This document shows, piece by piece, positions 1 to 57,499 of a stretch of 64,000 nucleotides of DNA. The stretch's first letter is position 1, and every line of letters starts with the position of its first letter. The notes under the pieces were generated by a model. It saw nothing but the letters and a program-made list of their open reading frames with translations. It was not told the origin of the DNA and did no database searches. The translations under genes and the position numbers were made by a program. The stretch comes from an uncultured Caulobacterales bacterium (lineage in GTDB: Bacteria > Pseudomonadota > Alphaproteobacteria > Caulobacterales > Maricaulaceae): NCBI GenBank assembly GCA_938009235.1, contig CALLIK010000010.1, positions 1 through 64,000 on the forward strand, in the 5' to 3' direction.

Positions 1-49
1 TGACGAAGCGGCCCATCTGTCCCTACAGTTTGGCCATTAGACCTAGTTC

Positions 50-77
50 GTGCAATTTTTGGAAACAAAAAATGCAC
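50..77. repeat. Palindrome GTGCA..TGCAC inside repeat copy 1
   Basis: GTGCA (50-54) pairs with TGCAC (73-77) and TTTTTG (56-61) with CAAAAA (66-71), leaving an A-A mismatch at the sixth stem position and a short GAAA-type loop. A near-identical palindrome with a mismatch at the same stem position lies at 56585-56611, close to repeat copy 2 but outside the aligned part. It could be a small mobile palindromic element or a structured site. Confidence 0.6.
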
Positions 78-178
78 CTGTCGGCTCTCACTTCAAAAGG
101 TCCGGCACAGTTCGATGTCTCACCACCAAATGCTCAACCCCACCGTCTTCCAAACCAGATAAAGAGCGCTACCCTGTC

Positions 179-212
179 CTGTGTCCGAAAGAACGCCCTT
201 AGAATGACACAG
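179..212 (+). other. Conserved hairpin with conserved 20-nt loop, repeat copy 1
   Basis: CTGTGTC (179-185) pairs perfectly with GACACAG (206-212). The 20-nt loop differs at only two positions from the loop in copy 2 (56384-56417), although flanking sequence has diverged more. A loop conserved more than its surroundings suggests a recognised RNA or DNA element. There is no strong U-run, so it is not a typical intrinsic terminator. Confidence 0.5.
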
Positions 213-406
213 CTTTTGAGAGCGGGGATCATGTTTTTGAAAACACAGTTTTATGGGCGTTATAGGCCGTTCAAAACAGGGATCATTATTAAACGCAGCA
301 CCTATTCGGTCTGTCATGACACGAAAGATACCACATCCTGACACGAAATGGCTTGAAGCTTAATCAGTGGGCGCGCACCTATCGCTCAACTTCGAAAGGC
401 CTCGTC

Positions 407-3202: not shown

Positions 3203-3481
3203 TTAAGTTTTTTTCAACAGTAAAGAGACCAACTCGGCGACCTTACGTTCTCGCTCGTCTCGATCATCACTTGCCATAGCAGAGGCAAGACAATGATCTG
3301 CATGATCGGTGAGAAGTTCACCTTCGACTTTTTTCAAAGCCGCCTGCACAGCCTTCACTTGCGTGAGCACATCAATGCAATAACGATCTTCGTCGATCAT
3401 TTTAGACAGGCCTCGGACCTGCCCTTCAATACGCGCCAATCGTTTACTGACGCCTGTCCGCCGTGTTTGTCTGTCCGTCAT
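3203..3481 (-). CDS. CsoR/RcnR-family metal-sensing repressor
   Basis: A 92-residue all-helical repressor if started at the ATG at 3481, which gives the usual family length; a GTG at 3514 would add 11 residues with a poor ribosome-binding site. The core has the family pattern RLARIEGQVRGL. The metal ligands of copper-type CsoR are visible: Cys in RYC, then His and Cys spaced four apart in HADHC. This C-H-C set points to Cu(I), although related sensors for formaldehyde, nickel or sulfur share the fold. It is divergent from a metal operon and a CsoR-type operator lies between them (3519-3538). Confidence 0.88.
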   Translation of the reverse strand: MTDRQTRRTGVSKRLARIEGQVRGLSKMIDEDRYCIDVLTQVKAVQAALKKVEGELLTDHADHCLASAMASDDRDERERKVAELVSLLLKKT

Positions 3482-3518
3482 GTACTGACTCTTATGCTTG
3501 TCTTTACGATGCACTCCC

Positions 3519-3538
3519 TATACCCCCTAGGGGTATGA
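3519..3538. promoter_or_regulatory. CsoR-type operator
   Basis: TATACCCC-CTA-GGGGTATGA is an AT-flanked, GC-centred inverted repeat of the kind bound by CsoR-family tetramers. It lies 38 bp before the csoR-like start and overlaps the ATG at 3535 of the divergent gene, so one site could control both directions. Binding is inferred from the motif and the neighbouring regulator. Confidence 0.7.
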
Positions 3539-4176
3539 TAAGAACAGCCCTAATTACAGCCAGTCTACTGGCAGGCAGCACCGCTGCCTCTGCGCGGCCT
3601 GTATCCTATGCGGGCGGCTGGACTTTAATTGAAGATACGGACCGGCAATCGACGACGGCTTTGGTTCATTATTCTCCCTCGGCATTTTATTCGCTGGGCC
3701 TGCGCACACACTGGCATCGCAGCGAGGACATTTTATTCACGGGCCCTCAAGCCACATGGCTCGCTAAACGGTGGTTTGGTGAAGATCATCAAGCCAATTT
3801 ATATGTCTGGGGCGCGGCAGGACTTGTAAAGGATATCGGAAACAACCCCGAAGACGATCAACTCGGCGGACAATTCGGCGTTATGACGGATTGGGAAACG
3901 CGGCGCTTATTCTTATCCTACCGCGCGTCTGCCAGTGACTTCGGCTCATTCGGTCAATCTGCAATGCAGGCCGCAAGGGTCGGTTTCGCACCGTATAAAG
4001 GCGACACGGGCGAGCTACACACATGGCTTATGTTAGACGTCGACCATCGCCCTGAAAACGAAACCCCGATTGGCGTCACGCCGCTTATACGCTTGTTCTA
4101 TGGCTCAGCCTTATTCGAGGCGGGTTGGAACGTGACAGATGACGCCCCGCTTCTTAATTTCCAATATCGATTTTAA
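3535..4176 (+). CDS. Exported protein of the metal operon, likely outer-membrane barrel
   Basis: A 213-residue protein from the ATG at 3535. The frame stays open to 3463, but the signal peptide (MIRTALITASLLAG..ASA) begins at 3535. The mature part has alternating hydrophobic/polar stretches, several Trp and Tyr residues, and ends in the aromatic residue of FQYRF, as outer-membrane barrels do. It may have a role like the copper-resistance protein CopB, but I see no methionine-rich copper motif. The start codon lies inside the CsoR operator and lacks a clear ribosome-binding site, so translation may be leaderless. It is first in a set with an HMA protein and a MerT-like protein. Confidence 0.7.
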   Translation: MIRTALITASLLAGSTAASARPVSYAGGWTLIEDTDRQSTTALVHYSPSAFYSLGLRTHWHRSEDILFTGPQATWLAKRWFGEDHQANLYVWGAAGLVKDIGNNPEDDQLGGQFGVMTDWETRRLFLSYRASASDFGSFGQSAMQAARVGFAPYKGDTGELHTWLMLDVDHRPENETPIGVTPLIRLFYGSALFEAGWNVTDDAPLLNFQYRF

Positions 4177-23894: not shown

Positions 23895-24116
23895 GCCTGC
23901 TGTCCTTTGGGCCTGAGAGATTGACAATGCACATCACCTATGGCGCGCAAAGCTTACTCCGTCGGCGGGACCTTTCACCTCCCTCAAGATGAGGGCTGGT
24001 CCACTTTCCAGCATTTTAACCACCAAGCGGTCCGTTGACCTGAGCGTTTCCGGGGCGGTTGCGCCTTCGGTGGCGACCTGCCTTCTATGCTGAAGGTTCG
24101 TCGCTCTCTCCCACTT
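23895..24116 (-). promoter_or_regulatory. Tandem glycine riboswitch
   Basis: On the minus strand two aptamers lie in series before gcvT. The first contains GTGGGAGAGAGCG, GCGCAACCGCCCCGGAAACG and CTCAGG; the second contains CTGGAAAGTGG, GGGAGGTGAAAGG, AATCTCTCAGGC and AAAGGACAGCAGG. The paired GAGAG/CTCTCAGG and GGAA segments are the known signature of the glycine riboswitch. Glycine binding should switch the operon on. The second aptamer ends about 35 bp before the ATG, so control could act on translation or on a terminator. Confidence 0.93.
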
Positions 24117-24236
24117 GGTAGGGATGACACGTAAATGCTTGTATTCAATCAGAGAGTCAATCGCGACAAGACAGCAAAGCCTTAAGACCTGTGTGTTACT
24201 TGTAGACCAACAAAAGTTATAAACACAGGTGGTATC

Positions 24237-54693: not shown

Positions 54694-54990
54694 ATGGATC
54701 AATCATCAGCTATACAATGCTTAACCGCAATTTCTCACAACGGCAGACTATCGCTGATGCGACGCCTCATAAAAGCGGGGTCTTCAGGTATGTCTTCAGG
54801 CGACTTGGCAGCGGCTGAAAATATAAATGCCAGTACAGCTTCGGCCCAACTTTTAGTCCTCTCAAACAGTGGACTCGTGAGCGCGACCCGAAACGGCAAA
54901 CAAATGATATATCACGCTCACTTTAATCGCTTTCAGAAACTCATATCTTTCTTGATGGAAGACTGCTGCGCGGGAGAACGTGATGTTTGA
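54694..54990 (+). CDS. ArsR-family transcriptional regulator
   Basis: A 98-residue winged-helix protein. The recognition region is NINASTASAQLLVLSNSGLVSATRNGKQMIYHAH (near 45-78). A cysteine pair near the C-terminus (MEDCCAGERDV) could sense metal or thiol oxidation, but the alpha3 CxC of classical ArsR is absent. It overlaps the ATP-grasp gene by 8 bp and has a strong operator, so the pair is likely self-regulated. Confidence 0.85.
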   Translation: MDQSSAIQCLTAISHNGRLSLMRRLIKAGSSGMSSGDLAAAENINASTASAQLLVLSNSGLVSATRNGKQMIYHAHFNRFQKLISFLMEDCCAGERDV

Positions 54991-56236
54991 TTCTGCGGCC
55001 TTAAACTTGAATAGTGATTGCTATTGCTGGCCTGTAAAACGTGAAGCCATCATTCAAAAAATTGTAGATCAAAACGCCGCAAACAATATGGCGTCCATGC
55101 TCTCAGAGCGGTCACATTATTTTGCCAGCACGACAATTTTTCTAGCACCTGATATTTTGACTAAAATGAAAGTGCAAATCCACGCCATAGAGAGCGTGAT
55201 TAAACGCCCCAAATATATTGAAACCATTCAACAACGTGGGTCAGTTTTTAACGACCCAATTCATCAGCATAAAACGCAGGGTGTTTTTATGGGCTATGAC
55301 TTTCATGTCACGGAAGATGGCCCTCGCCTTATTGAGATAAATTCAAATGCGGGCGGGGCCTTCATTGTCGATATGGTTGAGCAAACTGTTCGGGATACAA
55401 ACAATGGGTTTTCTGCAGGCATCGTAAAAATGTTTCTGCAGGAGTGGCAATTGGCTGGGCGCACAAAGCCCCTAACTACAATTGCCATTGTAGATACAGC
55501 GCCGAGCGAACAGTATCATTATCCAGATATGTGCCTAGCTAAGACACTCTTAGAAGGGCACGGATTTAAGGTCGTAATTACAGACCCCGCAAAATTAAAA
55601 CTTACGGATGGAAACCTGTACCATGAGGAGCTTTTAATTGATCTTGTCTATAATCGTCTTACGGATTTTGACTTGTCAGAACCCGAACATTCGGACCTTC
55701 GCCGCGCATATATAGACAACATAGCCGTCATAACACCTGCGCCTCACCATCATGCGCTATATGCAGATAAGCGCAATCTAACTCTGCTAAGTGACGAGAC
55801 AACCTTAGTTAGATTTGGCGCATCTCAAAATCAGATAGACGCACTTAAATTAATCCCAAAGACGGTTCCCGTTACACCTGCCTCCGCAGCAATGATGTGG
55901 AAAGAACGACGTAAATTATTTTTCAAACCTACAGCGGGATTTGGAAGTCGCGGCGCGTTTAGAGGCGCGAAACTTACGAAAAAGGTGTGGAGTCAAATAT
56001 TGGACAGCGATTACATTGCCCAAGACCTTATCGCGCCACCCGTTCGAGCCGTGACAGTAGACGGCAAGCAGCTCACTTTAAAATTTGACGTTCGAGTTTA
56101 CACCTATGACGGCGTACCACTTTTATATGCAGCCCGAATATATCAGGGGCAGACAACCAATTTACGTACAGCTGGCGGTGGCCTTGCGGCCGTAATACCC
56201 GTTGAAACACCCGCGCAATGCAGCCCTAATTGTTAA
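54983..56236 (+). CDS. ATP-grasp-like ligase with permuted motif order
   Basis: A 417-residue protein (ATG at 54983). The catalytic E-x-N block GPRLIEINSNAGGAF, which closes a normal ATP-grasp domain, is at about 114-127, while the ATP-binding segment KLFFKPTAGFGSRG is at 312-324 and KFDVRVYTYDG through NLRTAGGGLAAV at 367-403. That order suggests circular permutation. Cysteines lie near the start (DCYCW) and at the very end (CSPNC). It may ligate a peptide or thiol substrate. No family name is known to me. The overlap with arsR and shared operator link it to the regulator. Confidence 0.6.
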   Translation: MFDSAALNLNSDCYCWPVKREAIIQKIVDQNAANNMASMLSERSHYFASTTIFLAPDILTKMKVQIHAIESVIKRPKYIETIQQRGSVFNDPIHQHKTQGVFMGYDFHVTEDGPRLIEINSNAGGAFIVDMVEQTVRDTNNGFSAGIVKMFLQEWQLAGRTKPLTTIAIVDTAPSEQYHYPDMCLAKTLLEGHGFKVVITDPAKLKLTDGNLYHEELLIDLVYNRLTDFDLSEPEHSDLRRAYIDNIAVITPAPHHHALYADKRNLTLLSDETTLVRFGASQNQIDALKLIPKTVPVTPASAAMMWKERRKLFFKPTAGFGSRGAFRGAKLTKKVWSQILDSDYIAQDLIAPPVRAVTVDGKQLTLKFDVRVYTYDGVPLLYAARIYQGQTTNLRTAGGGLAAVIPVETPAQCSPNC

Positions 56237-56370
56237 AATCAAAGCGCCTCACTACCACCACCCTCAAACATAACCGAGAGATATAGAGTCAAAAAATAAT
56301 GATCCGCGTTTTACTCAAAATTTCTCCATTCAATTTCAAACCCTTACAACAAATTCACAGAGATGCGTCC

Positions 56371-56562
56371 ACGGTATCAAAAGCTGTGTCATTCTAAGCG
56401 GGTTCTTTCGGACACGGGACAGGTAGGAGCTCATCTGCCGTATCGAGAGACGATGGGGTTGATCATATTTGGGTGAGATCAAATATGTGGGACTTTTTGG
56501 AGTGAGAGCCGATCGCCGTGTCTAATGGCATGACTTGCGAGGACAAACTGGCCGCTGCATCA
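56371..56562 (-). repeat. Diverged dispersed repeat, copy 2
   Basis: The reverse complement of this stretch aligns with 1-232 as described there, lacking copy 1's 34-base palindrome insertion. The most conserved part is 56380-56417. The two copies are in opposite orientations, about 56 kb apart, and both lie next to accessory or unrecognised genes. Confidence 0.75.
56384..56417 (-). other. Conserved hairpin, repeat copy 2
   Basis: On the minus strand CCGTGTC and GACACAG form a stem with one mismatch; the 20-nt loop matches copy 1 at 18 positions. Confidence 0.5.
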
Positions 56563-56584
56563 AAAACCGTCGCCGCGTGGCTTT

Positions 56585-56611
56585 GTGCATTTGTTTTTCA
56601 AACAATTGCAC
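56585..56611. repeat. Palindrome GTGCA..TGCAC near repeat copy 2
   Basis: A 27-nt palindrome with GTGCA and TGCAC ends and TTGTTT/AAACAA arms, with a mismatch at stem position six, the same position as in the palindrome at 50-77. It lies 22 bp past the aligned part of copy 2. Confidence 0.5.
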
Positions 56612-56845
56612 GGGGGGTGGAATGAGCTTATGGCTCAATCCACTTTGGTCTTTGCGTAAAACAAACTTTTCTATTCGGTACTCCATCGCGAGTATCACCA
56701 CGCGGGCTGTCCTGCTTAAACATACACCCCCTTGCCGCGCCCCAGATGGGCGGCTGCACCAAATGCATGGCTCACTGAGACTGAAATACATATCAGTTGC
56801 ATCATATGTCTCGCTTATCTGCGTTTTCCTCGTTAAGCCGCGCAC

Positions 56846-57499
56846 ATGACTGATCCTTGCAAAATTTACCTCATCACGCCCCCTCAAATTGAGGATGTGC
56901 TCGCGTTCTGTGCGCTCTTGAAAACGACGCTCGAAGCAGCGCCTGTGACCTGTGTGCAGATCAGATTGAAGGACCTCGAAGATTCAGCGTTGGTTCAGGC
57001 GGGTAAGGCTATCACTGAGGTCTGCCATGCAGTCGGCGTCGAAGTTATATTGAACGATCGTCCTGACCTCGTCGCGGACATCGGCGCGGATGGTGCCCAT
57101 ATCGGACAAGAAGATATGGACTATTTGTCATCCCGTGAGGTGTTGGAAGAGGATGCCATTCTTGGCATCACCTGCCATAATTCGAAAGAACTAGCCTTTG
57201 CAGCCGCAAAAGCTGGAGCGGACTATGTTGCCTTTGGCGCGTTTTTTGAAACACCGACAAAGATCACAACAGCCCGCGCAGAGTTGGAGATTTTAACGTG
57301 GTGGCACGAAGCAGTCGAAATACCGAGCGTCGCAATCGGCGGAATAACAGTGGACAACGCACAAGCTGTGATCGCAGCGGGCGCGGACTTCATCGCCGTA
57401 TGCTCGGGCGTTTGGTCGCATCCAGACGGGCCCGCCGCAGCCATCTTGCAGTTCTCGCAGCTGTGCTTGGAGCATTCGCTACAACCGTTCCAGCAATAA
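56846..57499 (+). CDS. thiE: Thiamine-phosphate synthase
   Basis: A 217-residue TIM-barrel enzyme that joins the thiazole and pyrimidine parts of thiamine. Motifs include VQIRLKD near 33, LNDRPDL near 72, GAHIGQEDM near 89, GITCHNSKE near 108, and AFGAFFETPTK, with the phosphate site AIGGI near 164-168. The protein is normal in length and fold. Its 3' end overlaps the Sel1 gene by 100 bp in another frame. Confidence 0.93.
   Translation: MTDPCKIYLITPPQIEDVLAFCALLKTTLEAAPVTCVQIRLKDLEDSALVQAGKAITEVCHAVGVEVILNDRPDLVADIGADGAHIGQEDMDYLSSREVLEEDAILGITCHNSKELAFAAAKAGADYVAFGAFFETPTKITTARAELEILTWWHEAVEIPSVAIGGITVDNAQAVIAAGADFIAVCSGVWSHPDGPAAAILQFSQLCLEHSLQPFQQ

Follow-up and report, generated by a model that had tools for sequence, protein, structure and literature searches.

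The window (the whole 64,000-nt stretch of DNA that was analysed) contains two inverted copies of a non-coding element. A blastn comparison inside the window aligned positions 81–228 (+) of copy 1 with 56512–56368 (−) of copy 2, with 118 of 151 positions identical (78%, E ~3e-26), bearing out the inverted pair proposed by an earlier sequence-only reading of this DNA. The edges given there (1–232 and 56371–56562) were wrong, both copies being parts of an intergenic element far longer than that repeat, about 480–550 nt in this genome as judged from alignment with flanks and about 385–550 nt in the family, its edges approximate and set by eye from such alignments. In the orientation of the folding strand copy 1 occupies 1–288 (−), with a 5' edge near 288 and a 3' part cut by the contig end at base 1; since base 1 of the window is the end of contig C10, copy 1 has been cut off by the assembly. 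Copy 2 is present as a whole element at 56299–56757 (+), again with approximate edges.

Each copy has a structured core, located at 95–226 (−) in copy 1 and 56370–56498 (+) in copy 2, and scoring 134.8 bits and 112.8 bits (E 2e-30), respectively, with R1, a structural model derived from 54 copies of the core. The best conserved sequence of copy 2, GTTCTTTCGGAC (56402–56413, +), covers the CTTTCGG (56405–56411, +) that starts the first core helix and has its partner near 56444–56450. A CUC loop at 56430–56432 (+) pairs with GAG at 56475–56477 to form a loop–loop helix, the GAG loop being borne by a hypervariable covarying hairpin that together with its enclosing stem spans 56455–56493 (+). In copy 1 the loop of the hairpin at 156–176 (−) carries the 5' half of this contact, and the GTGAGA loop of the hypervariable covarying hairpin (99–141 with its enclosing stem, −) is the other half. 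Further along copy 2, the arms of a distal closing stem, CCGCGUGG (5' arm, 56573–56580, +) and CCACGCGG (3' arm, 56698–56705, +), flank two variable hairpins, GTGCA...TGCAC at 56585–56611 (+) and GTGGA...TCCAC at 56617–56643 (+). The insertion formerly ascribed to copy 1 is indeed extra sequence, and takes the form of a GTGCA...TGCAC hairpin at 50–77 (−), a similar hairpin standing elsewhere in copy 2 (56585–56611). Short hairpins of this sort occupy different positions in different copies, are much scarcer outside elements and may be a nested smaller repeat; palindromes of the GTGCA...TGCAC/GTGGA...TCCAC kind numbered 12 inside foreign elements (62 kb) versus 2 outside them (690 kb).

The gene next after copy 2, a neighbour lying outside the element, encodes a member of the thiamine monophosphate synthase family (TMP-TENI; 56846–57499, +). 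The 418-aa protein encoded before copy 2 (54980–56236, +) has no Pfam family, and at E<=1e-20 only 2 of the 18 genomes of the genus have it. The element itself has no reading frame kept across 107 distinct copies, and a protein-coding element was therefore rejected: all six frames are interrupted on average (means of 2.6–4.3 stops per frame), single frames being more than 80% open in 1 to 21 of these copies, in line with the earlier remark that open frames are not kept between the copies.

A conserved core fold with a loop–loop contact

A mutual-information screen to which no structure was supplied, run on 74 copies (81 for the 3' domain as read), retrieved three features: the hypervariable hairpin, loop-to-loop contacts joining two hairpins, and the distal stem, the last with column pairs such as TA46/GC20/AT6 and GC44/AT30. 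RNAalifold applied to the 54-copy core alignment gave 28 pairs, 16 of them with double changes, and in these copies the core together with the loop–loop helix comprises 32 pairs, 19 with compensatory double changes. The loop–loop helix contributes four pairs, three with double changes (CG48/GC4, UA54 and CG46/UA6) and a weak fourth that is unpaired in 16 of the 54 copies. Of all pair cells in these core copies 97.0% are paired, a figure that covers search-found copies only and would miss degraded ones, versus 82.6% in 500 shuffles, none of which reaches 97.0%; sliding the partners left 42–51% paired (34% at slide −3). By this measure covariation speaks for structure, compensatory changes exceeding both shuffled and slid controls. 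A distant set of 20 matches (19 distinct) from four genera (the window's own, g11, g12 and g18), in an alignment fitted to R1, was 92.9% paired versus 72.0%, with double changes at 21 of 28 pairs, and most of its members display the distal stem and a GTAAAAC-like motif by eye. The core fold is accordingly well supported and kept in four genera.

Folding energies of single copies were unremarkable (z 0.34, −0.32, −1.54 and −1.12), as expected where the signal lies in compensation and not in stability. The full-length alignment is poor, its consensus incurring a net covariation-term penalty on both strands, and the structural conclusions rest therefore on the core and on column statistics.

The folding strand is revealed by wobble pairs. 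On the plus strand of copy 1, the hypervariable hairpin has 139 A-C cells (equivalent to G-U on the other strand) versus 7 G-T, and similar excesses are seen in other covarying helices (34 vs 0, 68 vs 1, 39 vs 5 and 51 vs 8); one helix is undecided by this measure (11 A-C vs 13 G-T) and the distal stem has few wobbles (5 vs 0). Given this excess of A-C over G-T, copy 1 must fold on the minus strand and copy 2 on the plus strand. The pattern shows single-strand folding, in which RNA and single-stranded DNA are indistinguishable from wobbles. A small-RNA family, one of the original suggestions, fits such strand-specific wobbles, but a single DNA strand could also fold in this manner.

Copy number, site conservation and mosaic copies

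In DNA searches of the window's genome (G000; 2.79 Mb, 16 contigs, Litorimonas/Hellea group) at E<=1, copy 1 had 43 matches and copy 2 had 46, from which 45 distinct sequences were taken. The search for further copies proposed with the earlier reading thus turned up many beyond the pair. R1 finds 51 matches in G000 at E<=0.001 (two of these being contig ends with the same score, probably one copy) and 44 in G013, a relative of the same genus. Like copy 1, several of the other own copies lie at contig ends (C6, C7, C8, C11–C14 and C16). A chance duplication remnant, to be entertained had no third copy existed, would account for the pair itself and nothing more; with some 50 own copies, and others in further genera, it was rejected and is vanishingly improbable. 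The suggestion of a family of structured repeats has held, given some 50 copies here, 44 in G013 and a fold kept by compensatory changes.

At the DNA level, matches were confined to 10 of 60 genomes, all of one genus, but this limited distribution was rejected as an effect of sensitivity once R1, applied to 137 genomes of the taxonomic family, detected the element in 35, which represent 8 of the 19 genera (g6, g9 and g15 by a single weak match each). Of 299 genomes sampled across the order, 13 were R1-positive, and all 13 belong to the same taxonomic family. The element is dispensable, since 6 of the 18 genomes of the genus have no R1 match. Scanning named genomes with a pattern gave at least 97 stretches, 96 of which, among the matches listed, are Caulobacterales-type records; carriers among the matches listed include Litorimonas cladophorae KCTC 23968 (Maricaulales, Robiginitomaculaceae in the NCBI taxonomy), Hellea sp. 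and uncultured Caulobacterales. One Bacteroidales and two viral-contig pattern matches had no significant R1 match (best E 0.55). A phage or plasmid origin was rejected, blastn of copy 2 against phage and plasmid collections returning nothing.

Sites and orientation are conserved between species. Flanks were compared, with elements masked, against about 120 foreign loci, and a place was scored as shared when an element lay no more than 900 nt from the common flank on both sides. By this standard 25 of the 45 own copies have a counterpart at the corresponding place in one or more foreign loci, a lower bound since the foreign loci are a sample. All 56 flank alignments agreed in orientation, and amount to 42 own-copy/genome pairs, some places having been fetched twice. 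Conserved sites of this kind are unlike a freely moving element, and argue against a mobile reading. Turnover also occurs, the presence or absence of the element differing between species at two loci: an R1 element lies upstream of nrdB in 5 of 17 genomes, and upstream of pyrB in 4 of 14, to which G003 adds a weak match and G016 a partial element recognised by eye.

The copies are mosaics that evolve in concert. All 33 own copies compared (33/33) carry distinct combinations of five blocks, and in the four-gamete test 58–81% of their biallelic site pairs show all four combinations, more so with distance. In 16 of 17 comparisons an own copy is nearer to most of its paralogs than to its same-place counterpart in another species (the exception being L035–L172), the pairs having been listed by hand and those missing from the alignment dropped. 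A subfamily common to several species has another central block (GATAACGAG...CACACACAGCC on the copy-1 strand), with members at G000:C4:295766 (L070), C4:555520 (L068), L105, L126 and L258.

Whole elements get copied, as is evident from two copies in genome G034 that are identical over 370 nt (28+342) in unrelated flanks, and are the outcome of recent copying, or conversion, of the whole element. Being dispersed, intergenic, non-coding and copied as a unit, with smaller palindromes inside and with G.T pairs that a single DNA strand also tolerates, the element could be construed as non-autonomous at the DNA level (a MITE, REP-like or other), its fold mattering as hairpin DNA in transposition. 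This is very unlikely, since by eye no terminal inverted repeats were recognised and no clear target-site duplication was seen at the recent G034 pair, a multi-helix fold of about 400 nt with a covarying loop–loop contact far exceeds terminal hairpins, and Y1 transposase was found in none of the 18 genus genomes, in a search that was positive for 5 of 14 control genomes. About 18 of 106 5' flanks contain a distinct REP-like palindrome (GAGCGGCTT...AAGCCGCTC type) no more than ~250 nt from the element's 5' edge. It occurs on either strand, for which reason it was kept apart from the element; the search of these flanks gave 19 matches at E<1, for example at L067, L068, L087, L009 and L061.

Neighbouring genes and the nature of the element

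Genes on the 3' side of the element are preferentially oriented away from it, as is the case for 31 of the 43 own copies (p 0.005) and for 32 of the 38 foreign ones (p 2e-5; 49 elements less 11 dropped for short flanks or missing gene calls, orthologs not collapsed), with p-values that are optimistic owing to simple-ORF gene calls and to orthologs among the foreign loci. The orientation of the upstream gene is unbiased (21/38 in the own set and 21/38 in the foreign set). Such an arrangement, along with conserved position and orientation and element-to-gene gaps that are often short, would suit a cis-acting leader, in which each copy, a regulatory RNA of very large size, would form the beginning of the next gene's mRNA and control that gene. 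Against this, no pathway is common to the next genes among those scanned: 30 neighbours scanned with Pfam are diverse, six having no family and others including a DEAD helicase, ribonucleotide reductase small chain, an S1 protein, malate/lactate dehydrogenase, a carbamoyltransferase, an MscS channel and an Xer-like integrase, and only one pair of related flanking proteins, two DegP-like proteases, was found out of 81. Moreover, the gene ahead is an opposing one for 12 of the 43 own copies, whose R1 scores (90–134 bits for eleven, 74 for one) are like those of copies in leader position.

The placement of putative promoters further weakens the leader reading. Promoter-like sites occur between element and gene in 15 of 48 cases versus 7.4 expected, about twice, so that the element is often found a short way upstream of the promoter of the following gene. 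For pyrB and nrdB this gap contains a promoter-like motif that is similar between species by eye, placing the element upstream of the promoter there. Considering these observations jointly, control in cis as a leader seems quite unlikely. An alternative form of RNA function is a large trans-acting ncRNA, structural or protein-binding, needed in quantity and expressed from many gene copies that gene conversion homogenises. Its concerted evolution and stable sites do resemble multicopy RNA genes, and almost every core copy found has an intact fold, irrespective of the gene next to it; but the element is dispensable within the genus, promoter-like sites upstream of the 5' edge are not enriched (30/95 vs 30.2 expected), and no promoter- or terminator-like site was found at copy 2. 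A trans-acting RNA is thus also unlikely.

At the Rfam 15 gathering score the sole match in the window is a glycine riboswitch aptamer elsewhere (24018–24123, −; RF00504, 60.9 bits), and 11 loci compared with Rfam at E<=5 or E<=1 gave no match overlapping the R1 core, so that a known RNA family was rejected at gathering and loose thresholds alike. No description of the family was found in the open-licence full-text literature, and it is apparently undescribed. Group II introns are large folded RNAs copied to new sites without target duplication, and those lacking an ORF come close to the element in these respects, yet the element has no Rfam match, is intergenic, and abounds in G013, from which reverse transcriptase is absent; neither a domain V nor a GUGYG start was noticed in it by eye. 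HEARO/omega RNAs of IscB-/IsrB-type elements, of which protein-free copies occur, likewise tie a structured RNA to mobile DNA. They differ in that the element has no Rfam match, and the RRXRR domain was found in 0 of 18 genus genomes, in a search where no positive control matched. RNAs of the OLE, ROOL and GOLLD type are, as far as is known, few per genome, whereas the element has ~50 mosaic copies per genome and, again, no Rfam match. These large 'ornate' bacterial RNAs extend over hundreds of nucleotides, with many helices, covarying loop–loop contacts and little protein-coding content (PMC12286853), and to that extent the element, also hundreds of nucleotides long, multi-helix, little coding and with a covarying loop–loop contact, resembles them. 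The mobile/repeat candidate MRSC-65-2 shares dozens of copies per genome and a covariation-supported structure, but is described as a single long stem (PMC11109978), in contrast to the multi-helix fold with loop–loop contact described here. REP/BIME, ERIC, RU and other intergenic repeats are similarly dispersed, non-coding and foldable; RU units measure 103–168 bp, as opposed to 385–550 nt with tertiary pairing and with site and orientation kept between species.

A link to reverse transcriptase was rejected, the enzyme being present in 6 of 18 genus genomes only and missing from copy-rich G013 despite its 44 copies, hence not required in carriers, as was a link to Y1 transposases (IS200/IS605 or RAYT), with their count of 0/18. 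Two reverse-transcriptase-like frames stand side by side in the window's own genome (G000:C3:33305–35210), and at locus L203 (G016:C1) an element at 3452–3578 follows a 548-aa reverse-transcriptase frame at a distance of about 0.5 kb.

Neither decay from a mobile element nor an ordinary regulatory leader agrees with the data. The earlier idea of a mobile-element remnant has partial support as to mobility, given the 370-nt identical pair and presence or absence at two loci, but the copies found by the searches are not degraded, with 97.0% of pair cells forming. On balance, and with some reservation, the element is probably a long-lived structured-RNA mobile element, or an RNA gene family of mobile origin, evolving in concert. 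We infer that it is transcribed and that the folded RNA, once made, would act as its working part. An element without its own protein must be copied by machinery supplied in trans, and could then be tolerated, or be useful, in gaps just upstream of genes pointing away, after which homologous recombination between copies would keep the set alike, somewhat as in the concerted evolution of rRNA operons. More tentatively, it may represent a new class of protein-free element, in which a large RNA fold with a loop–loop contact is copied whole to intergenic sites, remains stable in site and orientation across species, and is kept uniform by block shuffling among ~50 copies while its paired loops still match.

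The element shares traits with large structured RNAs as well as with dispersed repeats. Large structured RNAs of unknown role are rare, and tens of copies per genome confer unusual statistical power, so that a single genome is enough to read structure, partner contacts and recombination. Provided that it is transcribed, the family would rank with the more abundant structured RNAs in these bacteria. It raises the question of how a protein-free element gets copied and persists so long, a question that the cultured carrier L. cladophorae KCTC 23968 makes testable.
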